A stretch of 64,000 nt of DNA from Methylacidimicrobium sp. B4 (GCF_017310545.1 NZ_CP066203.1:992001-1056000), one strand, 5' to 3'. Shown: positions 13,452 to 53,914, counted from the stretch's first letter. The notes: a model not told the origin generated them from the sequence alone. Translations and numbers: made by a program.

Positions 13452-15293
13452 CTAAACGTGCGCCGGTTCGCTCCGTACCTTCTCCTCGGCTCCCGGCTCC
13501 CACTGAGGGAGAAAATCCCTCTGCGCCCCGGGTACGCTATACTCGTAGGGCCCACGATAGACGGAAGGAGCGACCGGAAAGTTCCCATGCGCGAGAGGCG
13601 GGGTCGGAGTCGCCCATTCGAGGGTCGTGGCCTGCCACGGATTCTCCGACTTCGCCTTCTCTCCATGTTTGGCACTCCAAAAGAAGTTGATGATGAAGGG
13701 AATTTGCGCAAGCGCGAGCAGCCACGCGGAGATCGACATCACGTGGTTGAGCCAGAGGACGTTCTGCGCGTACTGCCATCCCGCTCCGCCATCGTACCAT
13801 CGCCGGTGAACGCCGTTCATGCCCTGAATGAGCATGGGGAAGAAGACGCCGTTGAAGAAAAGAAGCGTCGGCCAGAAATGAAGCTTCCCGAGGAATTCAT
13901 TCATCATGCGACCCGTCACCTTCGGATACCAGTAGTAGATCCCGGAGAAAAGCGCCATGAGCGAGGTCGGCGCCATCATGTAATGGAAATGCCCGACGAC
14001 GTAGTAGGTATCGTGAAGGACCAGATCCGACGAGCTCCAGCCGTTCGGAAGCCCGGTCAGGCCGCCAATGGCGAAGAGTGGCAACCAGGACAAGGCGAAG
14101 AGCATCGGCAGGTTGATGCGGATCGATGCTCCCCACAGTGAGAGAAGAAATACGGTCCCAATGAGCACGGAGGGAATCGAGATGAGCGTCGTGAAGATCT
14201 GGAAGAAGGTCGTCACCCCCTGGCCCATGCCGGTCATGTACATGTGGTGAGCCCAGACGACCATCCCGAGGAATCCGATGGCGATTTCGGAGTAGACGAT
14301 CATGCGGTAGCTCCAGAGAGGTCGACGCGTGTTGTTCGTCCAGATTTCCGCAATGATCCCCATGGTCGGAAGGATCTGGACGTAGACCTCGGGATGGCCG
14401 AGAAACCAGAAGAGATGCTGCCAGAGAAGGGGCGCGCCACCTCCGCTGACGGCCACCCGCTGGCCTCCGACGATCAATCCGTCGGGAGAGAAGAAGCTCG
14501 TTCCGGCAAGCCGGTCCATGAGCTGCATGACGGCGGCGGACTCGAGCGGTGGGAAGGCCAAGAGCATGAGAAAGGCCGTCACGAGCTCGGACCAGACGAA
14601 GATCGGGAGCCGCATCCAGGAGAGCCCCGGGGCGCGGAGCTGGAAGATCGTCGTGATCATGTTGACGGTCCCCAGCAGAGAGCCGGTGATGTTGAAGGCC
14701 ATTCCGAGCAGCCAGAGCGTTTGCCCGTTGAGCACCGGGTGAAAGCCGGGACCGGAGTCGGCCAGATTGGCGAGCGGGGGGTAAGAGGTCCATCCCGACT
14801 TCGCCGCTCCTCCGGGAACGAAGAAGCTCGCCACCATGATGACGACACCCACGAAGAAGCACCAGAAGCTCGCCATATTGAGCCGAGGGAAGGCCATGTC
14901 GGGAGCCCCGAGCTTGAGCGGGACGATGTAGTTTCCGAACCCGGCGAAGAGCGCAGGCACCAGAGCCATGAAGATCATAATGGTTCCGTGGATCGCTCCA
15001 AAGGAGTTGTACAACTGCGGAGTCATCACCCCGCCCGGCGCCATGTTGACCCCCACGAGCTGCTGCAGCAGCTGCGCGAAGAGGGGAACGGGCTTCCCGG
15101 GGTAGGAGAGCTGCCAGCGCATGAAGATCATGAGGACAAAACCGAAGAGCCCCATCAGGAGGGAGGTGATCATGTACTGGATGCCGATCACCTTGTGATC
15201 GGTCGAGAAGACCCACTGTCTCCACCAGGGCAGAGCCGCTTCGTGCCCATGCTGCCCCGGATGCACCGGATTTTCCGTCATATGGCCGTCCAT
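13452..15293 (-). CDS. coxA: Cytochrome c oxidase subunit I (aa3 type, A1 family)
   Basis: Catalytic subunit of a proton-pumping heme-copper oxidase in the inner membrane, 613 residues. All ligand motifs are present: GHPEVYVQILPTMG (CuB histidine, cross-linked tyrosine, D-channel glutamate, which marks A1), VWAHHMYMTGM (CuB pair), and DTYYVVGHFHYMM (heme ligands). The ATG at 15293 follows a strong GAGGAGGAAGAGGG ribosome-binding site. Subunits II and III and heme biosynthesis genes are absent here: upstream is a glycosyltransferase, downstream only a 77-residue membrane protein. Confidence 0.97.
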   Translation of the reverse strand: MDGHMTENPVHPGQHGHEAALPWWRQWVFSTDHKVIGIQYMITSLLMGLFGFVLMIFMRWQLSYPGKPVPLFAQLLQQLVGVNMAPGGVMTPQLYNSFGAIHGTIMIFMALVPALFAGFGNYIVPLKLGAPDMAFPRLNMASFWCFFVGVVIMVASFFVPGGAAKSGWTSYPPLANLADSGPGFHPVLNGQTLWLLGMAFNITGSLLGTVNMITTIFQLRAPGLSWMRLPIFVWSELVTAFLMLLAFPPLESAAVMQLMDRLAGTSFFSPDGLIVGGQRVAVSGGGAPLLWQHLFWFLGHPEVYVQILPTMGIIAEIWTNNTRRPLWSYRMIVYSEIAIGFLGMVVWAHHMYMTGMGQGVTTFFQIFTTLISIPSVLIGTVFLLSLWGASIRINLPMLFALSWLPLFAIGGLTGLPNGWSSSDLVLHDTYYVVGHFHYMMAPTSLMALFSGIYYWYPKVTGRMMNEFLGKLHFWPTLLFFNGVFFPMLIQGMNGVHRRWYDGGAGWQYAQNVLWLNHVMSISAWLLALAQIPFIINFFWSAKHGEKAKSENPWQATTLEWATPTPPLAHGNFPVAPSVYRGPYEYSVPGAQRDFLPQWEPGAEEKVRSEPAHV

Positions 15294-15559
15294 CCCTCTT
15301 CCTCCTCCACTTCCTCCAGCTTCCTCGCGCCGACTCCGGGGCCGCCCAAGGGCCCGCCGCCGGACCAAAGGCCCGCTATCGCTGCATCAGGGTAGCCGCC
15401 AGTGGTTGCGCGGGCTATTCTGGTGGTCTCCTCTCCTTTCCCTCAGGCAAGATCCGGGGGGATGCATCCGAGCAACCCGGTACACTCACCGGAGTTTTGC
15501 TCGCCGGGCGGCGGAATCGGGGACGAACGCCGGCAAGCAGGAATCGGCCGCGGAAGTCT

Positions 15560-16372
15560 CTATCCGCGAGCGACAACCTGGGGCGCGCCTTCCGCTCCAA
15601 TGGGCGGAGGCTGCTTGCCGAACTGGCGCTCGTAAAGCTTGGCGTACCGAACGAAAGTCGCCAGTGCAGTAACCGTGGCGATGTAGAGACCCGGAAATCC
15701 GTCCAGAAAGCCCAGCCGGAAGAAATAGCCCCGCAAAAAGCGCCAGAGAGGTCGGAAGAAGAGGTCCGACCAGCGAAAGCCTATGCCTCTTCCCTGCCGT
15801 TCGTCGGCAAATGCCGCCGCAAACGCCGGGATTTTCCGCACGTTGTCTTCCACGGTGGGGAACGAATAGTGGAGCAGATCCACCCGCATCTTCCTCACCC
15901 GACCGTCAAGAATCAGCTTGTCGTGCTCCCGATTCCCCCCCCATCGGCCGCGATCCCGGCGAAAGAGGCGCAGGTTATAGTCGGGATACCAATCTCCGTG
16001 CGTAATCCATCGGTTGAGGAACCATGTCTTACGGCGAAAGGATGCGCCGTCGAACTTTCCTTCCTCGCCGGAAAAGAACTCTTCAACCGCCTTTCGCATC
16101 TCGAGCGAAACTTCCTCGTCCGCATCGAGCCCCAGGACCCAGGGCCGCGTAGCCAGGGAGAGCGCCACATTCTTCTGGTCGCGGCGGCAGGTCCAGGCGC
16201 GCTCCTCAACGCGGGCTCCGAACTCGCGGGCAATCTCTGGTGTCGGGTCGGTGCAATCGTTGACGACGACGACGATCTCTTCCACCCAGCCAGCGACGCT
16301 TCCCAGGCTGCGCGGAAGGTTGCGCGCCTCGTTGCAGGCGATCATCGTCACGGAGATCGGCAGCTTCCTCAT
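15560..16372 (-). CDS. Glycosyltransferase family 2, LPS-core glucosyltransferase type
   Basis: A 270-residue GT-A enzyme. The N-terminal ISVTMIACNEARNLPRSLGS and the WVEEIVVVVNDCTD strand bind nucleotide-sugar; LGLDADEEV is the metal-binding DxD-like motif. KTWFLNRWITHGDWYPDYNLRLFRR is the signature of the WaaE/KdtX-like group that adds glucose to the inner LPS core. The C-terminal 60 residues are hydrophobic and aromatic and may anchor it to the membrane. It is followed upstream by a polysaccharide deacetylase on the same strand (34 bases apart). Confidence 0.87.
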   Translation of the reverse strand: MRKLPISVTMIACNEARNLPRSLGSVAGWVEEIVVVVNDCTDPTPEIAREFGARVEERAWTCRRDQKNVALSLATRPWVLGLDADEEVSLEMRKAVEEFFSGEEGKFDGASFRRKTWFLNRWITHGDWYPDYNLRLFRRDRGRWGGNREHDKLILDGRVRKMRVDLLHYSFPTVEDNVRKIPAFAAAFADERQGRGIGFRWSDLFFRPLWRFLRGYFFRLGFLDGFPGLYIATVTALATFVRYAKLYERQFGKQPPPIGAEGAPQVVARG

Positions 16373-33743: not shown

Positions 33744-33974
33744 TCCCACCGTCCGGCTGCTCTGCGCCGCCGCGATCGAGGACAACTTATCATCCCCCCC
33801 GAGGCGGTCAACTCTCCAGAGAAGCCCAGGGGTGGGCGACGGCGCCCGCGAAACCGGGTCCTCGACCGGAGGCAAGCGGGAGAGCGGCCGCAAACATGAA
33901 GAAAAAATCATGAGCACCGGCTGCACCCGGCCTTTAAGATCCCGGGCGATGTACCATCCCCGCCCCGGGAGCCG

Positions 33975-34673
33975 ATGAAGCGGATCGTCGAACCCGAGTG
34001 GATCGACCAGCTCGATCCCGCGAGCCTCGAAGCGCGGCGGACCCGAGGGGAGCTACGGCGAATGAACGCCCTGATGCGGAATTTCGACTGGTTTCGGGCT
34101 CAGCTCGCCCGCCATCCCTCTCTCTTCGGGCGGGGCTTGGAGCTCGGAGCGGGGGATGGGCACCTTGGGGCTTATCTATTCGCCGATCCAACGACCCGAC
34201 GACGGCTCGATCTGGTCGGCATCGATCGCATCGGCAGGCCGCCCGCATGGCCGGAGGATTGGCGCTGGGAACAAAAGGATATCCTCCGGTTTGAAGGGTG
34301 GCGCGACTTCCCTCTGCTCCTTGCCAACATGGTTCTCCACCACTTTTCGGCGGAAGAGCTCGCGCTGCTCGGTTCCCGGATCCGCGACTCCTGCCGGTTG
34401 CTGCTCGCGCTGGAGACCGCTCGGAGAGGGATGCACCTGGCCCAGGTGCGTGCGCTGCGCGTCTTCGGAATCTTGGGGCCGGTCGGGTACCACGATGCAT
34501 CGACCAGCATCCAGGCGGGGTTCGTCGGGGAAGAGCTTCCCCAACTTCTCGGTCTCCCCTCCTCGGAGTGGCATTGGCAGATCCGTTTGACCTTCTTCGG
34601 AGCGTACCAGCTCGTTGCCGAAAGGCGATCGTCAGGCGTGCCGGCTAGAACGCGACAGTTTCGCCGAGCTTGA
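33975..34673 (+). CDS. Class I SAM-dependent methyltransferase
   Basis: A 232-residue protein with a Rossmann-type SAM site: [15 protein letters not shown] near residue 53, an acidic LVGIDRIG at strand 2, QKDIL, and [15 protein letters not shown] at motif IV/post-motif. The substrate is not evident. It starts from its own region divergent to uvrA (231-base gap including an A-rich stretch near 33900) and is convergent with the metallo-hydrolase, overlapping it by 29 bases. Confidence 0.72.
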
Positions 34674-35652
34674 GCACCCGGAAGGAGTGCTCCGGAACGC
34701 CGAGAAGCTTCCGGGCCTCCGCCAGGAGGCGCACCGGTTCGTTCCATGGCTCATCGGAGAGACGAAATGTCCCCCAATGCATCGCCAGCGACATCGCAGC
34801 CCCGAGATCCAGGTGGAGTTGAACCGCTTCCCTGGGATTGAGGTGGAGTGGCTGCTGCAACCAGGATGGTCGATAGGCTCCGATGGGCAGGAGAGCCAGA
34901 TCGACGGGTCCCAGACGCCGGCCCAAGTCTGTATGAAAGCGGGCATACCCCGTGTCGCCGGCGAAGAAGATGCGATGGTTTCCGGCAGAAATGAGCCAGC
35001 TGCACCAGAGGGATCGATCGCGGTCGAAGGGCGTTCGTGCCGAGGCGTGCTGTGCGGGGAGGCAGAGAAGCCGCCAGGAGTCGCCCGTGATAAAATCTCC
35101 CCAGCCGAGCTCGGCTACCTGGCGGAACCCCCATCCCTCGATGAGGGGGCCGAGGCCGAGGGGACAGCAGACGAGCGTCGTCCGAGGAAGCTGGCGGAAG
35201 CTGGCTCGGTCACAGTGATCAAAGTGGGAGTGGCTGAGCAGGATGAGGTCGGGAGGCGGGCATTCCTCGACGCGGAAAGGGGAGGGACGGCGGCGGCGCA
35301 ATCCCGGAACGGGCCAGGGAGCGCAATAGTCGCCGAGAAGCGGATCGGTCAAGATGGTCAGCCCATCGAGCTGAAGAAGAAAGGTCGAATGGCCAAGCCA
35401 CGTTGCCAAGATGCGCGCAGCCGGCGGCTTGCGTAGCGCGGCCCAGTCGACCCGGACCTCCTCCGGGAAAGAGGCTGCCCCGGCGGCCTCCTCTTCGCCG
35501 CTCGGAGGCCGGGAAGCAAGCTTCCACCGGAGGACGTCTCTCCAGTGAGGGACCCAGGGGCTGTCGATATTGCAGAAGCGTCCGCTTTTCTGGCGAACGA
35601 TCCATGGGAAGCCGGGCACGCGCTCCGGTCTATGCCGTATCATCCCGCCCAT
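34645..35652 (-). CDS. Metallo-beta-lactamase-fold hydrolase, NAPE-PLD/UlaG-like
   Basis: A 335-residue metal hydrolase. HSTFLLQLDGLTILTDPLLGDY, then ILLSHSHFDHCD (HxHxDH zinc site near residue 145) and FFAGDTGY are the signature of the family that contains N-acylphosphatidylethanolamine phospholipase D and UlaG. DLALLPIGAY and ALAMHWGTF-like segments complete the fold. The start overlaps the end of the oxidase-like gene by 23 bases, so it is probably the last gene of the eight-gene operon. A lipid phosphodiester substrate is an inference. Confidence 0.82.
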   Translation of the reverse strand: MGGMIRHRPERVPGFPWIVRQKSGRFCNIDSPWVPHWRDVLRWKLASRPPSGEEEAAGAASFPEEVRVDWAALRKPPAARILATWLGHSTFLLQLDGLTILTDPLLGDYCAPWPVPGLRRRRPSPFRVEECPPPDLILLSHSHFDHCDRASFRQLPRTTLVCCPLGLGPLIEGWGFRQVAELGWGDFITGDSWRLLCLPAQHASARTPFDRDRSLWCSWLISAGNHRIFFAGDTGYARFHTDLGRRLGPVDLALLPIGAYRPSWLQQPLHLNPREAVQLHLDLGAAMSLAMHWGTFRLSDEPWNEPVRLLAEARKLLGVPEHSFRVLKLGETVAF

Positions 35653-36967
35653 CCCCTTCGCCCGGAAGCAGGGCGAGCAGCCACGAAAGAGAAACGGCCG
35701 TCATGCCCGCTCCCGCAACGACCCGCAGCCAGTAGAGCGGGCGCACCTCCGCAGCGTGGTGCCATAGCCATCCAGGGGTCCGCGCCTCGTTCCATCCCAC
35801 GGCACAGAGCACGAGGAGGTGGAAGAGCAGTCCCAGATGCCACAAGGAGAACCGGACGGGTTCCCGCAAGCGGCCCGGGTCCGCTGAATGTGCCGCCGCC
35901 AGCTGAAGGAGGAGAAGCATGTTCAGGCTGGTCAGCATGCCAGCCATCGCGATGTGCGCATGGGCAACCAGCAGATGGGAGAACTTCGCAGCATCGAGGA
36001 GGCCAGGGAGGAAAAAGGCGAAGCCGGTCAGCACCAGGGCCGTCCACCACCCGGCGAAGGAAATTCCCCAGAGCCGGCAGCCGGCGGCCCATCCGCAGGA
36101 GTGGAGGTAGAGCGGCAGCAGCGGGATCCAAAGTAGCAGGCTCGCCAATGCCCCGATCTGCCTCCCGTCCCGGTTGGACTGGTCCCCGTGACCGAGCAGG
36201 AGGTAGAGCAGGCTTTCCGCGAGAAAGCATCCCCAAAATAGCCGTTCCACGCGCCGGTTGCGGCACGGGATCTCCAGGAGGTGCGGGAGAAGCCCCAGGA
36301 TCAGCACGACAGCCAAGGTGGAACCGAGGAGATTGGTGCCTGTCGGCCCTCCGCTCGTCGGATTGATGGGCGGATAGAGCTGCGGCTTGGTTGCGGTCCA
36401 GATCGCCAGAGGTACCGTGCCGAGCCCGGCAAGAACGAGCCAGTCGAGAACCGATGGGGTGCATGCCGAGCCCTCGCTCCTTCCCTGACCGTGGCTGGCT
36501 CGCCTTCGGCGGAAGAGAACAAAAGCCAGCATCCCCCAGAGGCCGACGAGCATGGCGACAAAGCAGATCCGCGCAAGCCCAGACCAATCGAGGAAGAGCT
36601 TGCCGCTGGTCTCCCCTCGGAGCCACCAGGCGCCGCCCAGCGCAAGAACCCAGGACCAGAGCCCGAAAGCCCAGCGTGCCAGGAGCAGGGCGGCGGGTCG
36701 GCGAGGTAGCCACCGGTTCAAGAGGACGCCAACCGCTGGAAGCGAGCACCATCCGTAGAGCTGCCAGTCGAGATGGAGAGCCATCCACCTCCCGTACCCG
36801 GCTGGGCCCGACAGATCGGCCAGCCCCGGGCAGGCCAGCAGAAGTGCAAGCCAGAGACCGATTAGGTTTGCCGCGCTCAACCATAGGAGGCTGAAGCCGG
36901 CAGTGATGCGGAAGAGCCCAGCCCGGAACGCCACCGCATCCTCCTGCTCGCCGAGGAGAGAGTTCAT
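35630..36967 (-). CDS. Heme-copper-oxidase subunit I-like membrane protein without visible CuB site
   Basis: A 445-residue protein with about 12 membrane segments, the subunit I topology. ALHLDWQLYGW in segment 2 places His65 where the low-spin heme ligand sits, and LLVAHAHIAMAG in segment 10 (about residues 334/336) gives the HxH heme pair. I see no HPEVY-type or HH motif for CuB in segments 6-7. CcoN and NorB relatives are the closest by style. The ATG at 36967 has GAGG upstream; the longer frame adds 21 residues. It lies 69 bases downstream of the YceI gene. Confidence 0.75.
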   Translation of the reverse strand: MNSLLGEQEDAVAFRAGLFRITAGFSLLWLSAANLIGLWLALLLACPGLADLSGPAGYGRWMALHLDWQLYGWCSLPAVGVLLNRWLPRRPAALLLARWAFGLWSWVLALGGAWWLRGETSGKLFLDWSGLARICFVAMLVGLWGMLAFVLFRRRRASHGQGRSEGSACTPSVLDWLVLAGLGTVPLAIWTATKPQLYPPINPTSGGPTGTNLLGSTLAVVLILGLLPHLLEIPCRNRRVERLFWGCFLAESLLYLLLGHGDQSNRDGRQIGALASLLLWIPLLPLYLHSCGWAAGCRLWGISFAGWWTALVLTGFAFFLPGLLDAAKFSHLLVAHAHIAMAGMLTSLNMLLLLQLAAAHSADPGRLREPVRFSLWHLGLLFHLLVLCAVGWNEARTPGWLWHHAAEVRPLYWLRVVAGAGMTAVSLSWLLALLPGEGDGRDDTA

Positions 36968-37036
36968 GGTGCAGACCTCGGGAGCGGTCCGCCCTGCGGG
37001 ACGGACCGCCCGTTCGCCCGAAGATCGCAATCGGTT

Positions 37037-37654
37037 CTATTGGGGAAGGACGAAGGCGAATCGATAGTCGATCGGAATCGTGGTCCCGACCGTCATGAAC
37101 GCCTTCTTGATCTGCGGCAGCCCGTATTGGAGCGTATCAACGGTCGTCTTGCCGGAAACCAGGATCCGGCTTCCTTCTCGCCACCAGAGGGCGTTGCTGT
37201 TGAGCGGCTGCCGGACTCCGTTGAGCTCAAAGGTCCCGGAAATGGCAACGCGAGCGGGGGCCTGGGCAGTAGCGGTCGCGCAGTCGCCCGAGAGGACGCG
37301 GATCCCTTCGCATTGAAACGAGGCTTGCGGATGGAGCTTGGCGTGGAGCCAATGGAACATCTCCTCATCCCGCTTCTTGTGGAAGGTGGTAACGCCCGCA
37401 ACCGGGAAGACGAGCGAAGCCTTCTGGATCGACGGTATCCCGGCGCCGTCCCAATCGGCACTCCCCGTGATCCGGGTTTCCGCCCCGTGAAAATCGTGAA
37501 GGAAGGAATCTCCGACGAATTTGACATAGCTCTTGCTGCTATCGACCGGTATCGAGACCGGGGCGGCGGTGGCCCATCCAGCCCACGCAAGAGCGCCGGG
37601 CAGAAGAAGGATTCTAAGGAAGCGAAGGATCGATCGGTTATGGAATGCGGACAT
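37037..37654 (-). CDS. YceI-family lipocalin-like periplasmic protein
   Basis: A 205-residue exported protein. The signal peptide has the core ILLLPGALAWAGWATAA. The mature part begins VSIPVDSSKSYVKFVGDSF, then the beta-barrel pattern LVFPVAGVTTFHKKRDEEM, VAISGTFELNGVRQPLN and VSGKTTVDTLQYGLPQI. Characterised YceI proteins bind long isoprenoids such as octaprenyl chains. AGGAG lies upstream of the ATG. It sits between a cytochrome c fusion and an oxidase-like protein in an operon that begins with a polyprenyl synthase, which supports an isoprenoid ligand. Confidence 0.88.
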   Translation of the reverse strand: MSAFHNRSILRFLRILLLPGALAWAGWATAAPVSIPVDSSKSYVKFVGDSFLHDFHGAETRITGSADWDGAGIPSIQKASLVFPVAGVTTFHKKRDEEMFHWLHAKLHPQASFQCEGIRVLSGDCATATAQAPARVAISGTFELNGVRQPLNSNALWWREGSRILVSGKTTVDTLQYGLPQIKKAFMTVGTTIPIDYRFAFVLPQ

Positions 37655-37705
37655 CGTTGCTCTACTCCTGTTGATCTGTTGCTCTCTCTGCCGTGCGCGC
37701 CTCGA

Positions 37706-39661
37706 CTAGGGCGCACGCATCGGCTCGCTCCCTTGCGTCGACAATCGGGCGACGTAGGCGGCGAGTCCGAGAATCTTCGAATCCTCCAAGGTTTCATGAC
37801 CGGCCATCGTCGTGCCGGGAATTCCAAACTTGATGATCCGGGCCAAAACGATGAGGCGCCCTGCGGCCTCCTCGGTCGTGCCCGCTCCCCAGGAACTTCG
37901 GGTCAGGTCGCTCGGCGGGGGAGATCCCACGAGCTTGGCGAGAGGCCCGTCGCCATGCCCGGAGACGCCGTGGCATTGCGCGCAGCTTTCCGCAAAGAGC
38001 TTGGCACCGGTTGCGGGATCGGCCGGCCGGCTCTCCGGAGCGGGGAGCCATCGGATTGCTGCCGCCGCCCGATCCTCCCGGGTCGACGCTCCGAGCTCCT
38101 CCAGGTAGGCAATCAGCGCCTCGCCACAGGGGTTTCCGTCCGCGAAGAGGTGCGCATAGGACGGCATGCGTGATTCCGGGACGAGGGAGCGCGGATCGAT
38201 CAGGTGGAGCCGGTTCCACTCGGGCGAGCGGCGGTTGCCTACGCGGAGCAGGTCGGGCCCCTGGCGCCGATTGCCGATGAGCGGAGGAATCTCTTCCTTC
38301 CGATCCAGTGGCGGCTGCGCAGGTCCCCACCACTCTTCGTCCCGGCTGCCCGGTCGAATGTATTGCGAATGGCAATGGATGCAGCCCTCGCGGATGTAGA
38401 CCTCTCTGCCCAGCTCCCTCCCGCCCTCGGGCGACGAGGATCTCCGGGAAGGAAGAAGCGGCTCCTCCGGCAGCTGGGAAGAGAGAAGGCCGATAGCTCC
38501 CAATCCCGCCCAATAGGGGACGGAGCGGGGCGCCGTGGCGAGCGAGGCCACACGGGGGAAGAGAAGGCAGACACCGACAACCCCCAGCGAGGCGGCCAGG
38601 AATGCTCCGGGAATCGCATGGAGATCTTGGGCCATCCCGATTCCCATCGCCGAGCCGCACCACCCGGCGACCGCGTACAGGATGGCGGCACGCCAAGCCG
38701 CTGCGCCCAATGTCGTTCGGTTCGACAGACAGCCTGGAGCGAAGACCAGTGCGGCGGAGTAGAGGGAAACCCCGGCCGGATAGAGCCAGCCCGCGGCTCT
38801 GGCGCCCATGCCGGCGCCGCCGACCATGGCCGCGGACCCGGCCAGCAAGAGGAACGAGAGCGCGAGCACGCCCCGGAGCCCACCCCGATCGAGATACCAG
38901 CCGCCCGCGCAGGCCGCGAGGAAGTGAACGAGGCCGTTTCTCCACTGGAGTCTTGGCTCCCCCCAAGCGAATCGGTTGAGGTTGGGAGTGGCTTCCAAGA
39001 TGCTGAAGCAGGCCGAATCGACCCAGACCAGGACCAGAAAGACAACGACGATCGCTCGGAAGCCAGAAGCCGGTCGGGCATGAGGGGGGAGTGCTGGCGG
39101 ATCCTCCGGCTCTTTCAGGAAGCGGGTCGCGACCGCTCCGAGACCGCACGCACCGGCGGCCGCTGCCGCCTGGATCCAGGCCGAGCCGGCGAAGAGAGTC
39201 GGCACGTTGCAAACCGCATAGGCGATGCCGGTTCCAAGCCCGATCTGGAAGCCCCGACGCCGGGGATCGAGCAGGACAGCGACGCTCGCGGAGAGCGTTA
39301 CGGTGAGGATTCCCACCGATCCACCAATCCCGGCGGCAAGAAACGCAAACGAGGCGGCGCTGCGCGCCATGGTCGAGAGAAGAGCGGCGGCTCCGCTGAC
39401 CACAAAACTGACGAGCAGCAATTTTCGCAGACGGGATCTCCGAAAGAGACGGGCCGCCGCCAGGCTGCCCGCCACGCCGCCGCATCCCATTGCGAGAAGG
39501 ACGCCCCGGAGGCCGCTCCCGCCGACGCCCTGGGCCTGGATCAAACCCAGAAACCCAAACTGGGCGAAGAGGAGGAAGTCGACGTAGGTTGCCGCGATGG
39601 CCACGACGGCGGCCGCAGCAGCCGGTACGGAAACTGCAGAAGTCGGGAGGCGGTCAGGCAT
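37706..39661 (-). CDS. MFS-like 12-TM domain fused to CcoO-type cytochrome c and a second cytochrome c
   Basis: A 651-residue fusion. Residues about 10-385 form roughly 12 membrane helices in the style of a major facilitator. One more helix (about 392-410) precedes a CcoO-like cytochrome: REGCIHCHSQYIRP near residue 425, GPDLLRVG, and DPRSLVPESRMPSY with the axial Met near residue 497. A second class I cytochrome has CAQCHG near residue 559 and GTTMAGHE as distal ligand. The start at 39661 overlaps the preceding gene by 8 bases. Electron transfer on the periplasmic side is implied; any transported substrate is unknown. Confidence 0.85.
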   Translation of the reverse strand: MPDRLPTSAVSVPAAAAAVVAIAATYVDFLLFAQFGFLGLIQAQGVGGSGLRGVLLAMGCGGVAGSLAAARLFRRSRLRKLLLVSFVVSGAAALLSTMARSAASFAFLAAGIGGSVGILTVTLSASVAVLLDPRRRGFQIGLGTGIAYAVCNVPTLFAGSAWIQAAAAAGACGLGAVATRFLKEPEDPPALPPHARPASGFRAIVVVFLVLVWVDSACFSILEATPNLNRFAWGEPRLQWRNGLVHFLAACAGGWYLDRGGLRGVLALSFLLLAGSAAMVGGAGMGARAAGWLYPAGVSLYSAALVFAPGCLSNRTTLGAAAWRAAILYAVAGWCGSAMGIGMAQDLHAIPGAFLAASLGVVGVCLLFPRVASLATAPRSVPYWAGLGAIGLLSSQLPEEPLLPSRRSSSPEGGRELGREVYIREGCIHCHSQYIRPGSRDEEWWGPAQPPLDRKEEIPPLIGNRRQGPDLLRVGNRRSPEWNRLHLIDPRSLVPESRMPSYAHLFADGNPCGEALIAYLEELGASTREDRAAAAIRWLPAPESRPADPATGAKLFAESCAQCHGVSGHGDGPLAKLVGSPPPSDLTRSSWGAGTTEEAAGRLIVLARIIKFGIPGTTMAGHETLEDSKILGLAAYVARLSTQGSEPMRAP

Positions 39662-40109
39662 CGTTCGGAAATCTTCGCCGAAGCAAGACGAATTGGAGCA
39701 ATGCCCAGAAGCCGTCGGTGAGCGATACGCTGCTCCAGGCGCGATCCATGCCTCCGGAAGCAATCTCCACGCTGACGAAGCAGCAGACGGCGGCTCGCAG
39801 GAGGGCGGTCAGCTCCCAGACGGTGCGCAAGGAACCGGCGCGGCGGGCGACTCGCCAGCAGAAAAGGCCGTAAAAGTAACTGGCCCCGACCGCCGCGACA
39901 AAGACTCCAACGAACTGCGTCCAGGCGAGGTCTCCGGCAGGCGCAACGCCCATCCGGGAGAGAGTCCTCTCCGGAGCAAGCAGCAGGCAGACGCCGGTGG
40001 CCAGATCGCCTCCCCCGGCAAGGAGGCTGATCGCGACGGCCGCCTTTGCGCCCTTTTCTTGGAGCCACGCCCTCCTCGGGCCTTCCGGAACGGCGGAAAG
40101 CGAGCTCAT
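39654..40109 (-). CDS. Small four-helix membrane protein of unknown function
   Basis: A 151-residue protein with about four hydrophobic segments (AAVAISLLAGGGDLATGVCLLL, FVGVFVAAVGASYFYGLF, TALLRAAVCCFVSVEIA, WALLQFVLL). I do not recognise the family; DoxX-like quinone-linked proteins have similar size and topology but no motif confirms that. Its ATG overlaps the ABC ATPase stop by four bases and its end overlaps the cytochrome fusion by eight, so it belongs to the same operon. Confidence 0.65.
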   Translation of the reverse strand: MSSLSAVPEGPRRAWLQEKGAKAAVAISLLAGGGDLATGVCLLLAPERTLSRMGVAPAGDLAWTQFVGVFVAAVGASYFYGLFCWRVARRAGSLRTVWELTALLRAAVCCFVSVEIASGGMDRAWSSVSLTDGFWALLQFVLLRRRFPNDA

Positions 40110-40822
40110 AAGGGAAGAGCCTGTCCTTGATGGACCCGGAGGACCCGGCGGCAGCCCTCGGCGAAGCGCCGCTCGTGCGTGGCGAGGATCACGGAGGCCC
40201 CCTCCTCGGCGACCAACCGAAGGAGCAGTTCGAAGACGAGATCCGCAGTCTTCTCGTCGAGCGCGCCGGTCGGCTCGTCGGCAAAAATCACCTGCGGCTG
40301 ATTCATCAGGGCCCGACAGATCGCGGTACGCTGCCGCTCCCCGCCGGACAGCGTCTGAATCCGGCTCGCGAGCCGATGGGAGAGGCCGACCTTCTCCGCG
40401 AGATGGCGCGCGCGGGCGTCGGCCTCCTTGGGCGGCCGTCCCGCCGCCAGGCAGGGAATCCGCAGGTTTTCAAGCAGCGTCAAATCCGGAATCAGGTTGT
40501 GCAGCTGAAAGACGAATCCTATAGAGCGTCGGTATAGCTGAAGGCGGGTCTCCTCGCCGGCTGGATCGAGCCCGAGAATGAAGACCTCGCCTCGATCCGG
40601 CCGCTCCAATCCACTGAGCAGGTGAAGAAGGGTACTCTTTCCGGAACCCGAGGAACCCCAGAGCGCCACCATCTCCCCACGGCTGATCTCCAGGCTGACT
40701 CCCTGGAGGACCGGAGTCTGCCCATGATCAAAGCTCTTCCAGAGGTCCCGGGCGACGATCGCCTTCGCCGATTTTACCTCTGCGGCGGCGGGGAAATGGC
40801 TATGGGGTTCTTGGGGATTCAT
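40106..40822 (-). CDS. ABC transporter ATP-binding protein, LolD/MacB type
   Basis: A 238-residue ATPase. Walker A is [19 protein letters not shown] near residue 60, the Q-loop FVFQLHNLIPDLT, the signature LSGGERQRTAICRAL near residue 150, Walker B VIFADEPTGALD, and the switch histidine in VILATHERR. It pairs with the overlapping permease (ATGA). This class does not pump across the membrane like classical importers but drives lipoprotein or lipid extraction and periplasmic mechanics. The start at 40822 gives a sensible N-terminus. Confidence 0.93.
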   Translation of the reverse strand: MNPQEPHSHFPAAAEVKSAKAIVARDLWKSFDHGQTPVLQGVSLEISRGEMVALWGSSGSGKSTLLHLLSGLERPDRGEVFILGLDPAGEETRLQLYRRSIGFVFQLHNLIPDLTLLENLRIPCLAAGRPPKEADARARHLAEKVGLSHRLASRIQTLSGGERQRTAICRALMNQPQVIFADEPTGALDEKTADLVFELLLRLVAEEGASVILATHERRFAEGCRRVLRVHQGQALPL

Positions 40823-41931
40823 TCGTAACGCAGAGCTTCTGCGGGTGCGATGCGGGAGGCAAAATAGGCGGGATAGAATGCACCCGCGATCGCGGTAACC
40901 AGAGTGACCAGGGCGACGCCTGCCAAGAGATCCGCTCGAAGAGAGGCGCGGACATAGCCCTGGAGCTGAGGCGCCGCATTCATCGCTGCGAGCGCGGCCA
41001 GGCCCGCAACGCATCCGCCCAGGCTTCCCAAACCGGAAAGGACCACCGCTTCCCCCAGGATGAGGCTCGCGACCTGTCGTCGAGAGAAGCCGCAGACCCG
41101 CAGAACCGCAATCTCCCGAACGCGGGCGAAAACCGACATCAGCATCGTGTTGGCTACGCCCATGCCTCCAAGGAGGAAAGAGCAGATCCCGATCGCCCAG
41201 CTCGTGACATTGAGGATGCGAAACTGGGAGTAGGAGCGATTGAACTCCTTGTCCTCGAGAGCGATCAGATCCGGGAAGCGTTCATCGATCAGCTTCCGGA
41301 AGGCATCGAAGCTCGCCCCCGGGCGGAGCTCCACCGTGGCCAGCGAGGCCTGGGACTCCTTGTGAAAGAACTCTTGGGCCAGCGGCAAGGGAAAGAAGAC
41401 GCCCCCGTCCTCGAAGCCGTTTGCCGTCCGCAAAATGCCCCCGACGAGAAAGCGGCGGCTCCCGATCTGGATCTCCTCTCCCATCGCCTTCTTGAGGAAG
41501 GAGGCAGCTCGTTCGCCCAAGCAGACCGCACCCCTATCTTGGCCGAAGCGGGAGAGTGAACCGCCCAGCCAGCGGGCATGGCGGAGGCGCGGGTTATCGG
41601 CATCCACTCCAAAGCAGGTAATGATGGGATGGTTGGGAGAGCTGACGATTCCCACGAGCAGAGGGTCCACTCGTTTCACCAAACCAAGCTTTCGGATCTC
41701 CTCGAGCTGCGAGGCGCGCACGCTGCTGAAGAAGAGGTCGGAGACATTCCTCTCGAACAGAATGAACTGGCTCTCCGTCGACAGGATGTTCTGAAACATT
41801 CCGACCGCCCCCAGCACGATAGAAACGATGCAGAGCATGGAAGCAGCTCCAAAGCCGATCCCGGAAGCCGTTATGAGGCTGCGGAGCTTGTGACGGCGAA
41901 TGTTAAGAAAGATGAGCCTGAGAAAATCCAT
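40819..41931 (-). CDS. ABC transporter permease, FtsX/MacB type
   Basis: A 370-residue permease with one N-terminal membrane helix (LRSLITASGIGFGAASMLCIVSIVLG), a periplasmic MacB-PCD-like domain of about 200 residues, and three C-terminal helices (SWAIGICSFLLGGMGVANTMLMSVFARVREI coupling region, AVVLSGLGSLGGCVAGLAAL, ALVTLVTAIAGAFYPAYFAS). It begins 29 bases inside the polyprenyl synthase gene. The periplasmic domain suggests it handles a periplasmic-face hydrophobic substrate; an isoprenoid product of the preceding enzyme is a guess. Confidence 0.88.
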   Translation of the reverse strand: MDFLRLIFLNIRRHKLRSLITASGIGFGAASMLCIVSIVLGAVGMFQNILSTESQFILFERNVSDLFFSSVRASQLEEIRKLGLVKRVDPLLVGIVSSPNHPIITCFGVDADNPRLRHARWLGGSLSRFGQDRGAVCLGERAASFLKKAMGEEIQIGSRRFLVGGILRTANGFEDGGVFFPLPLAQEFFHKESQASLATVELRPGASFDAFRKLIDERFPDLIALEDKEFNRSYSQFRILNVTSWAIGICSFLLGGMGVANTMLMSVFARVREIAVLRVCGFSRRQVASLILGEAVVLSGLGSLGGCVAGLAALAAMNAAPQLQGYVRASLRADLLAGVALVTLVTAIAGAFYPAYFASRIAPAEALRYE

Positions 41932-43024
41932 GCCAGTTGATCTCTCGCACTTTGAGCAGAGAGGAAGCCAGTCGTTCCGAAATCGCCTGTTGTACCGGCT
42001 TTAGAAAGCCGAATCGCCGATCCCCGGCCAGGAGATTCACCGCGCGGCGCGCAAGGGCGGAGAGTCGAAGCAGGGAAGCCACGGTCCTTTCCCGGCCGAC
42101 CGCAAGGAGTAGATTCGGCCTGCAAAGATGCGCATCCCTTCCCTCCGCCAACAGGACGAGGGAGACCGGTTCGCTCGCGTCATGAATGTCATCGATCCCT
42201 TGGTAGAGCAACCCCCAGTAGACGCTGATGCGATGGAGCAGGAGCCGCTGCCGCGCCGGGAGATTGGCCGCCAAGGAGGGGAAGCCAAGAGCCAATCGGA
42301 TCAGGGGAACGGTCTTCCCTAAGGCAATCCTCAGGACTTCCCGTCGGCCTCCCGTTCGGTACGCCAGATCTTCCGCCTGTCCGTTGACAATGCCACCCGA
42401 TCCAAGGCAGCGCTCGAGGAGCCGGCACGCCTCCGTCTGCCTCCGCGTGGGAATCCGCGTGCTCACTTCGCCGAAAAGCGCATAGGCCCGGGTGATGAGC
42501 GCGAGGCTCCCCAGGATCGCGGTAGGTTCCCCATGCAGAAGATGCAGGCAAATTCGACCGCGCCGCTCCCTGGAATCATCCATGCATGGCAGGTCGTCCA
42601 GCAGCAGCGAAGCAATGTGAAAATATTCGATGGCACAAGCGAACTTTTTCGCAAGCTCCGTAGAGAATCCCACGGCAACCATCGCTCCGTAGGCGAGTTG
42701 GGCCCGGAAGAGGCTCCCGGAGTTGGTCAGTGATCGGAGAATCGCGACCCGCAAGGAGCGTTGCATTCCGGCGCGGATCGGGGCGTTGGACTGGAGCGAT
42801 TCAGACAATACTTTTCGAAAGCATCTCTCATTACACATGAAACTTTTTTCATAGATGAATAAACATTCATATTTCCGCTCGGAGTTCTCAAGCAATGCAG
42901 GATGGCACGATAAATTCTCGCTGGGCATTGTTCGGAATTGAGAGAGGAACGCGATCGTCCTGATCGACTGAAAAATTGACCGCATGATCGCAAGATTCGC
43001 CTCCATGTCAAGATCCAAGGCCAT
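41903..43024 (-). CDS. Polyprenyl (isoprenyl) diphosphate synthase
   Basis: A 373-residue trans-prenyltransferase. The first aspartate-rich motif is LLLDDLPCMDDSRERRG near residue 137, the second is YQGIDDIHD near residue 275. The size residue before the first motif and the chain length (GGPP-like or longer) cannot be read. The first about 85 residues are unusual, lower in GC and not family-like; an internal ATG at 42838 is a possible alternative start. It is the first gene of an eight-gene operon with redox and lipid-handling proteins. Confidence 0.83.
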   Translation of the reverse strand: MALDLDMEANLAIMRSIFQSIRTIAFLSQFRTMPSENLSCHPALLENSERKYECLFIYEKSFMCNERCFRKVLSESLQSNAPIRAGMQRSLRVAILRSLTNSGSLFRAQLAYGAMVAVGFSTELAKKFACAIEYFHIASLLLDDLPCMDDSRERRGRICLHLLHGEPTAILGSLALITRAYALFGEVSTRIPTRRQTEACRLLERCLGSGGIVNGQAEDLAYRTGGRREVLRIALGKTVPLIRLALGFPSLAANLPARQRLLLHRISVYWGLLYQGIDDIHDASEPVSLVLLAEGRDAHLCRPNLLLAVGRERTVASLLRLSALARRAVNLLAGDRRFGFLKPVQQAISERLASSLLKVREINWHGFSQAHLS

Positions 43025-43162
43025 GTCATGGTTGGATCCGGGCGAATCATAACGCGTAAGTGGAAGATAGATAGAGACTATTACTAGTCACACTGCGGGT
43101 TACGGAACTGGCCCGAAGCCCCGCATGGCCACCCTATGCGGATCGCGCCACCCTCCCACTCC

Positions 43163-44122: not shown

Positions 44123-46171
44123 ATGAAAGAAGGTTACTCTGCATCGGCCCCCTGGCGACCTCCCGGCGCTTCGGCCGAAGGCCAACCCCCGGCGTCGGCA
44201 GCCGGGCCTCTCGATCGTCCCCCCCTGTTGGAACCGCCTGGGACAATTGCCTCGGTTACCCAGGGAGTCTGCCAATTCCTTGAGCGGCCCGCTCCAGCCT
44301 GGTGGCTCCCGGCCACGATCGTCACGGGCCTGGTTGCCACGCTCGTCCTGGCGGCCAACGCCTACCTGGTGGGCACGGGGGTCGGCGTCTGGGGGGTCCA
44401 GGTGCCCGTCGTCTGGGGATTCGCCATCATCAACTTCGTTTTCTGGATCGGCATCGGCCATGCCGGAACCCTGATCTCTGCCATTCTCCTGCTCACCCGC
44501 CAAAAATGGCGCAACTCCCTCAACCGCGCCTCGGAGGCGACCGCCATCTTCGCGGTCGCCTGCGGAGCGATCTTCCCGGCGATCCACGTCGGCCGCCAAT
44601 GGATGGCTTGGTACCTGATCCCGGTCCCGCAATACATCGCGATCTGGCCGAACTTTCGCGCGCCGCTTCTCTGGGATGTAGCCGCCGTCCTCACCTATCT
44701 CACCGTCTCGGTGCTCTACTGGTATCTGGGAATGATCCCCGACTTCGCCACCCTCCGCGAAAGGGAGAAGCATCCCTGGCGTCGGAAGCTCTTTGCCATC
44801 CTCTCGATGGGTTGGTCGAGCTCGGCCCGGGAGTGGAACCACTACGAAATGGGCTATCTCTGCTTGGCGGGCCTCCTCGCACCCCTGGTTCTCTCGGTCC
44901 ACTCCTTCGTCTCCTGCGACTTCGCGGCCACGATCCTGCCCGGCTGGCATGCGACCATCTTCCCTCCCTACTTCGGCGCCGGGGCGATCTTCGGCGGCTT
45001 CGCCGTGATCCTGGTTCTTCTCATCCCTCTGCGGGCCCTCATGCCCGAGCTGAAGGAGTTTATCCTGCCGATCCACATTGAGCAGATGGCCAAATGGCTC
45101 CTGACAACGGGCTCCCTGGTCGGCTACGTCTACTTGACCGAGCTCTTCCTCGCCTGGTACAGCGCCAATCCGTTCGAGCGCTACGCATTCTGGAATCGGA
45201 TCACCGGGCCCTATGCTCCCGAGTTCTGGGGCATGCTCACCTGCAACGCGATCGCGCCGCAGCTCCTCTGGTTCCGGGCGGTCCGGAGGAGACCCTGGAT
45301 CGTCTTCGGCGTAGCCGTTCTGGCCAATATCGGCATGTGGCTCGAGCGCTTCGTCATCATCGTAATCTCTCTCCACCGGGATTTCCTTCCCTCGTCCTGG
45401 AGCCTCTACCATCCCACCTGGATCGACATCGGGCTCCTGGTCGGCTCGGTGGGCCTCTTTCTCTTCCTCTTCCTCCTCTTTCTCCGCTTTCTTCCGATCA
45501 TCGCCATGTTCGAGGTGAAGGCGCTCTGCAACGGTGCCGCGGAGGTCACCTCTGCTTCGCCCGAGCCGCCGAAGGCCTCCCTCGCTGACCTGGAGCACGC
45601 GACGTTCGGCCTGGGAGCCCGGTTCCCCTCCGCCGCCGCTCTTTGTCGAGCCGGTCGGGCGCTGCGGGAGAAGGGCTTTCGGCGAATCGAGCTCTATTCT
45701 CCTTATCCCTTCCACGGGCTGGCGGAGGCCGCGGGGCACGGAAAGAGCTGGGTCTCCGCCTGCGTCCTGGGAGCGGGAGCGCTCGGCTTCTGTATCGCAG
45801 TTTGCCTGGAGATCTTCACCTCGATCCCGCGCCCCGCCCCCCTGCGCGGCCTGCTCTCGAGCCATCTGCTCGATCTCTTTTTCCCGCTGGTCGTACAAGG
45901 CAAGCCCTACATCAGCCTTCCGGCATTCTTCGCCGTCGTCTTTGAAACGACCGCCCTTTTCTCCGCATTCGGAGCGGTGCTCGGCATTCTCCTGGCCAGC
46001 TCGCTTCCCCGCTTCCACCGGCCGCTCTTCGATTGGGACCTCTTCAGCAGAAGAAGTCAGGACGACGGCTTCTTTCTCCTCGTCGAGCGCCGGGATCCCC
46101 GGTTTTCCGCGGATCTCCCCCGGCTCCTGAAAGAGATCGGAGCCTTGGAGATCCGTGCGATTCCGGAATGA
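44123..46171 (+). CDS. ActC-ActD fusion (NrfD-like quinol-interacting membrane protein plus DUF3341)
   Basis: A 682-residue fusion. Residues about 50-460 form ten membrane helices of the NrfD/PsrC family in its ActC form, for example IHVGRQWMAWYLIPVP, WSSSAREWNHYEMGYL and WHATIFPPYFGAGAIFGG. Residues about 500-680 are an ActD/DUF3341 domain (ALREKGFRRIELYSPYPFHG, two helices, FFLLVERRDPRF). In alternative complex III these are separate subunits oxidising quinol for cytochromes. ActA, ActB, ActE and ActF are absent here. The ATG at 44123 starts the family region; the ORF upstream is an antisense artefact of tlyA. Confidence 0.9.
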   Translation: MKEGYSASAPWRPPGASAEGQPPASAAGPLDRPPLLEPPGTIASVTQGVCQFLERPAPAWWLPATIVTGLVATLVLAANAYLVGTGVGVWGVQVPVVWGFAIINFVFWIGIGHAGTLISAILLLTRQKWRNSLNRASEATAIFAVACGAIFPAIHVGRQWMAWYLIPVPQYIAIWPNFRAPLLWDVAAVLTYLTVSVLYWYLGMIPDFATLREREKHPWRRKLFAILSMGWSSSAREWNHYEMGYLCLAGLLAPLVLSVHSFVSCDFAATILPGWHATIFPPYFGAGAIFGGFAVILVLLIPLRALMPELKEFILPIHIEQMAKWLLTTGSLVGYVYLTELFLAWYSANPFERYAFWNRITGPYAPEFWGMLTCNAIAPQLLWFRAVRRRPWIVFGVAVLANIGMWLERFVIIVISLHRDFLPSSWSLYHPTWIDIGLLVGSVGLFLFLFLLFLRFLPIIAMFEVKALCNGAAEVTSASPEPPKASLADLEHATFGLGARFPSAAALCRAGRALREKGFRRIELYSPYPFHGLAEAAGHGKSWVSACVLGAGALGFCIAVCLEIFTSIPRPAPLRGLLSSHLLDLFFPLVVQGKPYISLPAFFAVVFETTALFSAFGAVLGILLASSLPRFHRPLFDWDLFSRRSQDDGFFLLVERRDPRFSADLPRLLKEIGALEIRAIPE

Positions 46172-52135: not shown

Positions 52136-53464
52136 CTATTGGGAAGCCGCCCGCGCTTCCGGCCGGTAAGCCGGCCTGATCGACTTGGATCCAAACTTCA
52201 TATGATGGGGACGGCCCAGTTGCTGTTGATAGAAGTCGATCTGGAAAGCCGGCTTGAGCTCTTCGCCGTTCCAATTGTAGGCTTTGAGGAACTGTTCGTC
52301 ATCAGGCCCTTTCTTATCCCAGTTCGAGAGCAGCGATGAGGTGAAATAGAGCCGTTTCCCATCCCAGCTCTCCGAAACCATGTTGACCTGCTTGCCAATC
52401 GTCGTCTCGTATACCTGCTTCGGATGCTCTGGATCCGAGATATCAAAGTAATGGGCCTTCCCATCCAGGAAGGTATCGACCCATAAGCCTCTGCCATCGT
52501 GGGTGATGCTGATGTCCACCGGGATGGCGAGCTGAGAGGGGTCGCCAACGGTCGCCACTTCCTTCGCCTGCCACTCTCCTTGAGCATCCTGCTTGATGAG
52601 CCAGAGCTTGGAGGTCAGGGCCGTAGCCGTCATGGCCCAGGCATCTCCCGGCTTCAAGGACCAGCGGATCTCGAGAGGCGCACCAGGGACGCTGAAGATC
52701 TTTTCCGGCTTCATGGCCTTGAGGTCCCAGAGCACCATGGTGTTCCCAAACTGCTTCATGGCCTCCTGATCCTTCATCAAGGTCCCTAAATCCATCATGT
52801 AATTGTTCCAGCCGGTGAAGCTGGAAGTAAGCAGGACATTCCTTTGGGGGTTGATCCCGATATCGTAGCCGTAACCGTCGCCGCCATCCGTCGTCGGCAT
52901 GGGATAGGAGGTGATGAATTTTCCGCTGTTGGTATAAAGGGCCATGCCCGTCACGCCCCCATGATCCTTGCTGTTGGAGAGCGCCTGGATCAGCATCCGT
53001 CCGGGCAGAGCATAAAAGGTGTGCGGGCCGACATAGCCGGTTTCCTTCACCATATTGCTGATCGTCCTGACCATCCTGGGCTTGGCAGGGTTGCTCGCGA
53101 CGTCGAATACGTAGATCTTGCTGCTATCCAGATCGCCAGCCCAGAGGTAGCGGCGATCGTCTGTGAGGCCCACGTGGTGCGCTTCCCCGCGCCCTCCCAC
53201 AGACAGAGTGGCGATCACCTTGCCGTAGTGCTTCGACTTGGGGTTCGCATCCACGGTCACCAGCTTGTCGGATCCGTCGCCCATCCCCTTGACTCCCAGA
53301 GTCCATACGTAGACGTAGTCCTCCTGCCCCTTGATGAGGTCGGCGATGTAGGGGGAGTTGCAGGTCTCATCGGCTTGGGTCACCAGCGGATCGGCCGCGC
53401 TCGCTATTGCCACGACAAGGAATAGCGCCCACAGCGATTTTTTGAGCCGAATCGATTGCCACAT
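52136..53464 (-). CDS. mtoX: Methanethiol oxidase (SBP56 family)
   Basis: A periplasmic copper enzyme that oxidises methanethiol to formaldehyde, hydrogen sulfide and hydrogen peroxide. 442 residues with a signal peptide (LWALFLVVAIASAADPLV). It is the selenium-binding-protein-like seven-bladed propeller: GEAHHVGLTDDRRYLWAGDL, GYVGPHTFYALPGRMLI, DIGINPQRNVLLTSSFTGW, and the C-terminal GRPHHMKFGS. Histidine pairs HH and HxF in these repeats are the likely metal site. I chose the ATG at 53464, with GAGGA upstream; one at 53479 is possible. Confidence 0.93.
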   Translation of the reverse strand: MWQSIRLKKSLWALFLVVAIASAADPLVTQADETCNSPYIADLIKGQEDYVYVWTLGVKGMGDGSDKLVTVDANPKSKHYGKVIATLSVGGRGEAHHVGLTDDRRYLWAGDLDSSKIYVFDVASNPAKPRMVRTISNMVKETGYVGPHTFYALPGRMLIQALSNSKDHGGVTGMALYTNSGKFITSYPMPTTDGGDGYGYDIGINPQRNVLLTSSFTGWNNYMMDLGTLMKDQEAMKQFGNTMVLWDLKAMKPEKIFSVPGAPLEIRWSLKPGDAWAMTATALTSKLWLIKQDAQGEWQAKEVATVGDPSQLAIPVDISITHDGRGLWVDTFLDGKAHYFDISDPEHPKQVYETTIGKQVNMVSESWDGKRLYFTSSLLSNWDKKGPDDEQFLKAYNWNGEELKPAFQIDFYQQQLGRPHHMKFGSKSIRPAYRPEARAASQ

Positions 53465-53914
53465 GCGCGTTTTCCTCATCTTTGAGCCCACGGGCCGTCT
53501 TTTCACGAGGTTGTGGCCTTTTCCCCCACTTACCCGAGGAGGCAGGTCGCACCCGTTTTCGCCTGTCGTCCCCAATGCAACGGTTGCTCCACTTGTGCCG
53601 GTCACGATAGGGCGAAAGGCGCGGCCGAGCAAGCTTCCCGCTGAATTTTCCGCCGGCGCCACTCGACGGGCTTCGGGCTCGCCGCTTTTCCTGGTGGATC
53701 CAGCCGCCAACGGGTGCCAGCCGGTGCCCGCAATCTCTTCTGCTTCGCCGGGTTTCCCGGGCATTGCTCCCGAGGCCATGGTGGGGTGCTCCGCAGGCAG
53801 AGGGGCATTTCCAGAGTGTTTTGCCCTTTCGGTGCCATCCCTCCTTCCCCCGCGGCTCCTTCCGGCTGATGGTGGGAGTCGCCGAAGCGATGCATTGGCC
53901 AGCGAATCAACGTC
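53465..53914. other. 450-base gap upstream of mtoX with no supported gene
   Basis: Lies between the mtoX start and the cysH stop, both on the minus strand. Open frames here have no family character and continue only as N-terminal extensions of mtoX. It should contain the mtoX promoter and leader. A run near 53804-53860 resembles part of a glycine riboswitch core, but pairing elements are missing. No strong -35/-10 pair stood out. Confidence 0.5.

Follow-up and report, generated by a model that had tools for sequence, protein, structure and literature searches.

The window analyzed here is a stretch of 64 000 nucleotides from Methylacidimicrobium sp. B4 (NZ_CP066203.1:992001–1056000), and coordinates are counted from its first letter. 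Between uvrA and tlyA it carries a run of eight genes, all on the minus strand, which an earlier reading made without database searches (the sequence-only reading) had described as an operon forming one membrane system that makes, moves and redox-modifies an isoprenoid or uses it as an electron carrier. The window coordinates confirm the run, its strand and its seven junctions as described. The synthase and permease genes overlap by 29 bp, the permease and ATPase genes and the ATPase and small membrane protein genes by 4 bp each, and the small membrane protein and fusion genes by 8 bp; gaps of 51 and 69 bp separate the fusion from YceI and YceI from the CcoN-like gene, which overlaps the hydrolase gene. 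Family calls on the window proteins were made with Pfam and NCBIfam and gave polyprenyl_synt, MacB_PCD with FtsX, ABC_tran, FixO with Cytochrom_C, YceI and Lactamase_B_2; the CcoN-like protein has no Pfam match of its own. The features are as follows (ABC, ATP-binding cassette; MFS, major facilitator superfamily; CuB, the copper of the oxygen-reducing site).

41903–43024, minus strand: trans-isoprenyl diphosphate synthase (CrtE/IspA-like), a dedicated paralogue (PF00348, 4e-23)
40819–41931, minus strand: FtsX/MacB/LolCE-type permease with a periplasmic core domain (PF12704 and PF02687; MacB and LolC structures)
40106–40822, minus strand: LolD-like ABC ATPase (TIGR02211, 5e-66, below cut-off)
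39654–40109, minus strand: small four-helix membrane protein (weak DUF4345 match in three of 16 relatives)
37706–39661, minus strand: fusion of a 12-helix MFS-like domain, one anchor helix, a CcoO-type cytochrome c and a second c-type cytochrome (FixO, 7.8e-27; Cytochrom_C, 9.7e-11)
37037–37654, minus strand: YceI lipocalin with a signal-peptide-like N-terminus (PF04264, 8e-15)
35630–36967, minus strand: CcoN-like homologue of heme-copper oxidase subunit I, 12 helices, lacking the CuB ligands (CcoN structures, hhalign, invariant residues)
34645–35652, start probably 35643, minus strand: NAPE-PLD-like metallo-hydrolase, the looser member (human NAPE-PLD, 6.5e-58)
33975–34673, plus strand: methyltransferase-like gene, convergent with the run (Methyltransf_12, weak, 0.0076)
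33813–43160, unstranded: the block as a whole at the uvrA–tlyA junction (blastn and tblastn of empty junctions)

Seven of the eight genes cluster again in about 20 further Verrucomicrobiota genomes from at least four families and two classes, including the family-level groups f12 (called Opitutaceae by inference), f11, f5 and f38. The operon call is supported and extended. Of the 62 genomes of the window's order, four (G000, G020, G022 and G008) have the full-length fusion, and it is these four that have the CcoN-like protein. Across 388 genomes of the phylum, a profile of the CcoN-like family detected 20 genomes, with E values starting at 1e-66 and no further hits within the limit of 1e-8, and the MFS profile detected the same 20 together with three genomes containing nothing but an unfused MFS gene. 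When the class of G098 was searched, one more true CcoN-like member (G454) was added; the other hits there, at about 1e-11, match no more than the first 160 positions and fall in long open frames, as would be expected of ordinary CcoN–CcoO proteins. A contig scan gave one close relative of the fusion, in a 'Candidatus Methylacidiphilaceae' genome, and no CcoN-like relatives were present in the viral contigs or plasmids searched.

Neighborhoods were compared in nineteen loci of 20 kb and in the loci of the window's order. The usual order is YceI, synthase, permease, ATPase, CcoN-like protein, small membrane protein and fusion; the genus of the window deviates, with YceI and the CcoN-like gene placed after the fusion and followed by the NAPE-PLD-like gene. 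In eight loci the fusion is followed by a response regulator and a histidine kinase, a pair whose best scores, all below cut-offs, are with the CopRS/CusRS group. In several loci the small membrane protein went undetected, and its profile may miss members there. Beyond the core, no broadly conserved neighbors were found in these neighborhoods, and most candidate clusters were antisense frames.

In the sister species G021 and G017, tlyA comes immediately after uvrA, where the window has 9.3 kb between the two (∼33813–43160). Since the whole block is absent between these genes, it is gained or lost as one piece together with the methyltransferase-like gene, copies of which (71–77% identical) lie beside the block in G022 and G020. 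The block therefore exceeds the eight genes of the sequence-only reading: within the genus, the convergent methyltransferase-like gene travels with them. A distant methyltransferase homologue (4.8e-17) is also found in locus L081, adjoining the CcoN-like cluster of G271. The same uvrA–tlyA junction in G018 holds an unrelated insert (L123, ∼13500–15690) whose frames resemble, by eye, a serine recombinase and a TnpB-like protein. Good support for the idea of one membrane system comes from the conserved clustering, the shared presence of the genes and the empty site, and we are confident that the cluster is a single functional unit.

The CcoN-like protein is a relative of oxidase subunit I from which the copper site is missing. 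COX1 is matched by 11 of the 21 family members, the PDB matches of the family profile are cbb3-type CcoN chains only, and hhalign against CcoN sequences of the same order gave 95% over 415 columns; the alignment displays 12 hydrophobic peaks. The only invariant histidines are His65, which aligns with the low-spin heme ligand of CcoN, and His336 and His338, which align with the helix X pair, so that the bis-histidine ligation of low-spin heme b and the heme b3 histidine of the C family are preserved. Its CuB ligands (the helix VI histidine and the helix VII His-His pair) are not. The helix VI histidine is absent from all members and an invariant G-G-[PA]-T-G is found instead, and helix VII contains no invariant histidine, the pair being unconserved; many f12 members have HGxxSHH in this region, which is missing from f11 and reads HGDQSNRD in the window. 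These assignments combine established knowledge of CcoN with alignments that are weak in helices VI and VII. Because the CuB ligands are replaced, the protein should not be a normal oxygen reductase, and it is likely that its complex is not an ordinary one. As judged by sequence, the protein is the descendant of a cbb3 oxidase subunit and has lost the oxygen-reducing copper site.

The fusion carries the presumed partner subunit. FixO is matched in all 19 members, CcoO structures are matched at 1e-32, and the invariant residues Cys427, Cys430 and His431 (CxxCH) and Met499 (the methionine ligand) correspond to the heme c domain of C-family CcoO; 18 of the 19 also have a second c-type domain. The assignment of the fusion to a cbb3 oxidase in the sequence-only reading therefore holds for a genuine CcoO domain, whereas the CcoN-like partner is without the copper site. 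The MFS part scores weakly (MFS_1 in two of 19 members, best 8e-5; MCT1/2, 3e-3) and shows 12 hydrophobic peaks and one anchor, with Asp215, His246 and Met343 (84%) as its conserved charged, histidine and methionine residues. We rejected a copper importer of the CcoA type for this part, as it has no conserved pairs of the kind MxxxM and HxxxM, the motifs that PMC6362234 gives as conserved in CcoA. In G178, G225 and G237 the MFS part forms a gene of its own at another place in the genome, and the unfused genes of Opitutaceae-like genomes adjoin an apparent histidine-biosynthesis run (named by eye), which is uninformative. The fusion gene of G022 (L019, 140–2085) is split into two overlapping frames by an apparent frameshift at ∼1489–1525, which is either real or an assembly fault.

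The profile of the synthase family matches IspA and GGPPS structures (up to 1.6e-52), and the motifs DDxxxxD, DDxxD, K, Q and RR are conserved, which provide the two aspartate-rich motifs and basic residues of a trans-isoprenyl diphosphate synthase. In 20 of 23 genomes it accompanies two housekeeping-like paralogues as a third; it is dedicated to the cluster, with its catalytic motifs kept. The gene is almost certainly drawn too long, with its real start probably near 42835 or 42770: alignments with homologues begin only at about residue 70, and the opening segment of the drawn gene is rich in A and T and contains the sole promoter-like site (43011–42984), a single match being the chance expectation. 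The best solved relative of the YceI family is BcnA (PDB entry 5ixh, 2.6e-16). The permease resembles the MacB and LolC structures; the curated LolCDE scores are not reached, with 222 bits against a cut-off of 308 for LolD and 62 against 362 for LolCE. The hydrolase matches human NAPE-PLD (PDB entry 4qn9) at 6.5e-58 over residues 21–332, its full length, with the zinc motif HxHxDH present as HSHFDH, in agreement with a NAPE-PLD-type enzyme. Of the 20 genomes that have a homologue, ten have one no more than about 10 kb from the cluster, and in G454 one adjoins the cluster, which we estimate to be far above chance at one to four such genes per several-Mb genome. The eight-gene membership stands for the seven genes that recur as a cluster, while the hydrolase, near it in just half of those genomes, is only loosely linked and is treated as a looser member.

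We propose that the cluster encodes one envelope redox system in which a cbb3-derived cytochrome is combined with the synthesis, extraction and carriage of an isoprenoid, a reading to which we assign a probability of roughly 0.4. A redox role is indicated by the three histidines that ligate heme and by the two motifs for c-type heme, and the dedicated synthase, together with a YceI protein closest to BcnA, supports the isoprenoid link. The dedicated synthase would make a putative isoprenoid, either a quinone-like or a polyprenyl lipid, the ABC pair would lift it out of the inner membrane and YceI would carry it through the periplasm. The complex, which is not expected to reduce oxygen in the usual way since the CuB site is gone, would pass electrons between the membrane or carrier-bound isoprenoid and the periplasmic c-type hemes, and would thereby re-reduce or re-oxidize the carried lipid. 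The likeliest use would be the protection of envelope lipids from oxidation, as proposed for BcnA (YceI) and LcoA (cytochrome b561). The isoprenoid as an electron carrier is a tentative proposition that falls a little short of even odds, and a new envelope pathway, in which a copper-less cbb3 descendant with its MFS module redox-cycles the isoprenoid of its own operon, is more tentative still; the antioxidant use, taken by itself, is rather unlikely. The gene unit is stronger than first described, and the mechanism is offered as a hypothesis.

Several observations weigh against this proposal. The ABC pair does not adjoin the CcoN-like gene in four loci (G225, G237, G098 and G271) and the synthase is missing from three CcoN-like genomes (G178, G338 and G415); thus, neither is indispensable. 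The YceI protein of the window is only ∼20–27% identical to the Opitutaceae-type YceI. The MFS domain, apart in three genomes, has no explanation in the proposed scheme. Pairwise distances of the seven families correlate, with r mostly 0.8–0.94 and lower values (0.36–0.57) for several of the pairs that include the ATPase, a family for which a different ATPase was matched in two loci; these correlations mostly reflect shared descent and add little. A structure predicted from the single CcoN-like sequence of the window had a pLDDT of 51 and a pTM of 0.30 and was not used.

Three genes elsewhere in the window are of interest. An ordinary heme-copper oxidase is represented by a complete COX1 subunit I at 13452–15368, and a gene at 52136–53779 is similar to that of the selenium-binding protein SBP56, a family that includes methanethiol oxidase. 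At 44123–46168, ActC (NrfD-like) and ActD of alternative complex III are fused in one gene; relatives of it lie beside tlyA also in G018 and G021, which places it outside the block.

The complex could instead be a quinol or isoprenoid dehydrogenase, forming an accessory branch of respiration that takes electrons from a lipid carrier through CcoO and the second cytochrome to a normal oxidase. The heme b ligands and the two c-type hemes would form a wire from membrane to periplasm, the window encodes the ordinary COX1, the ActC–ActD gene is next door, and verrucomicrobial methanotrophs rely on menaquinol together with several oxidases (PMC8498564). This scheme leaves the dedicated synthase, YceI and the ABC pair unexplained, and ActC–ActD stands beside tlyA even where the block is absent, so that we consider it improbable, although the most serious of the alternatives. 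A reductase using heme b3 only, in which the copper-free open heme site would reduce nitric oxide, peroxide or an organic peroxide, accords with the invariance of the presumed b3 ligand His336 alongside the loss of the CuB ligands, and with response regulators that score near the HprR, CusR and PmrA types. Nitric oxide reductases of the heme-copper superfamily, however, retain a second metal site with three histidines, which is absent here, and no link to nitrogen genes was seen; such an enzyme is still less probable.

The response regulator and histidine kinase that follow the fusion in eight loci would suit a redox or gas sensor, in which the retired oxidase signals to the neighboring kinase to control lipid genes, but neither the window nor the f11 clusters have the pair, several f12 clusters also lack it, and this role is quite unlikely. 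An active oxidase with its copper bound by other residues of helix VII would be compatible with the HGxxSHH region of many f12 members. That it seems very unlikely follows from the helix VI histidine missing in all members, the absence of the motif from f11 and the HGDQSNRD of the window. That unrelated genes lie together by chance is barely credible: modules do split off, with YceI and the synthase together on another contig in G271 and the MFS part elsewhere in the three genomes named above, but chance is contradicted by clusters that recur in different families and classes, by the shared presence of the genes and by absence in one piece. We retain the envelope redox system as the preferred reading.

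If it is correct, the cluster represents a conserved reuse of the heme-copper oxidase scaffold without copper, genetically tied to isoprenoid synthesis and lipocalin transport. It offers a clear set of genes to delete for the question of what YceI proteins carry and which partner reduces that cargo, and it implies that some genes which annotation would assign to cbb3 oxidases as subunits probably do not encode oxygen reductases. Novelty was judged against the open-access literature and the genomes of one phylum; the earlier statement that no equivalent had been described agrees with that literature, in which we found none for the gene combination or for relatives lacking CuB.

Among known systems, the cbb3 oxidase CcoNOP shares with the cluster the CcoN fold, the three heme-ligand histidines, a bona fide CcoO heme c domain and a CcoP-like cytochrome c; the cluster differs in its missing CuB ligands, in the fusion of CcoO behind an MFS-like domain and in the inclusion of isoprenoid, lipocalin and ABC genes. 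CcoA, the MFS copper importer for cbb3 oxidase, likewise is an MFS-type protein tied to the CcoN/CcoO pair, whereas the cluster protein has no conserved MxxxM/HxxxM and its partner no CuB to fill. LolCDE and MacB, type VII ABC systems that extract lipids or substrates from the inner membrane, share the periplasmic core, the FtsX permease and the LolD-like ATPase, while the cluster has a single short permease gene and falls below the LolD and LolCE cut-offs. The closest parallel in layout is BcnA–LcoA, in which the YceI lipocalin has a membrane cytochrome b561 as its co-encoded partner and each of the two lowers lipid peroxidation (PMC9113575). Isoprenoids are found in YceI barrels, with ubiquinone-8 or polyprenyl lipids bound, and re-reduction of a bound quinone by LcoA was suggested by the authors (PMC9113575). 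Here too a periplasmic YceI protein is encoded with a membrane heme b protein; no cytochrome b561 is found among the cluster genes, the heme protein being instead derived from CcoN and joined by c-type partners, and the cluster further includes an ABC pair and a dedicated synthase. We thus regard the resemblance as a likeness of plan and not as membership of the same system.

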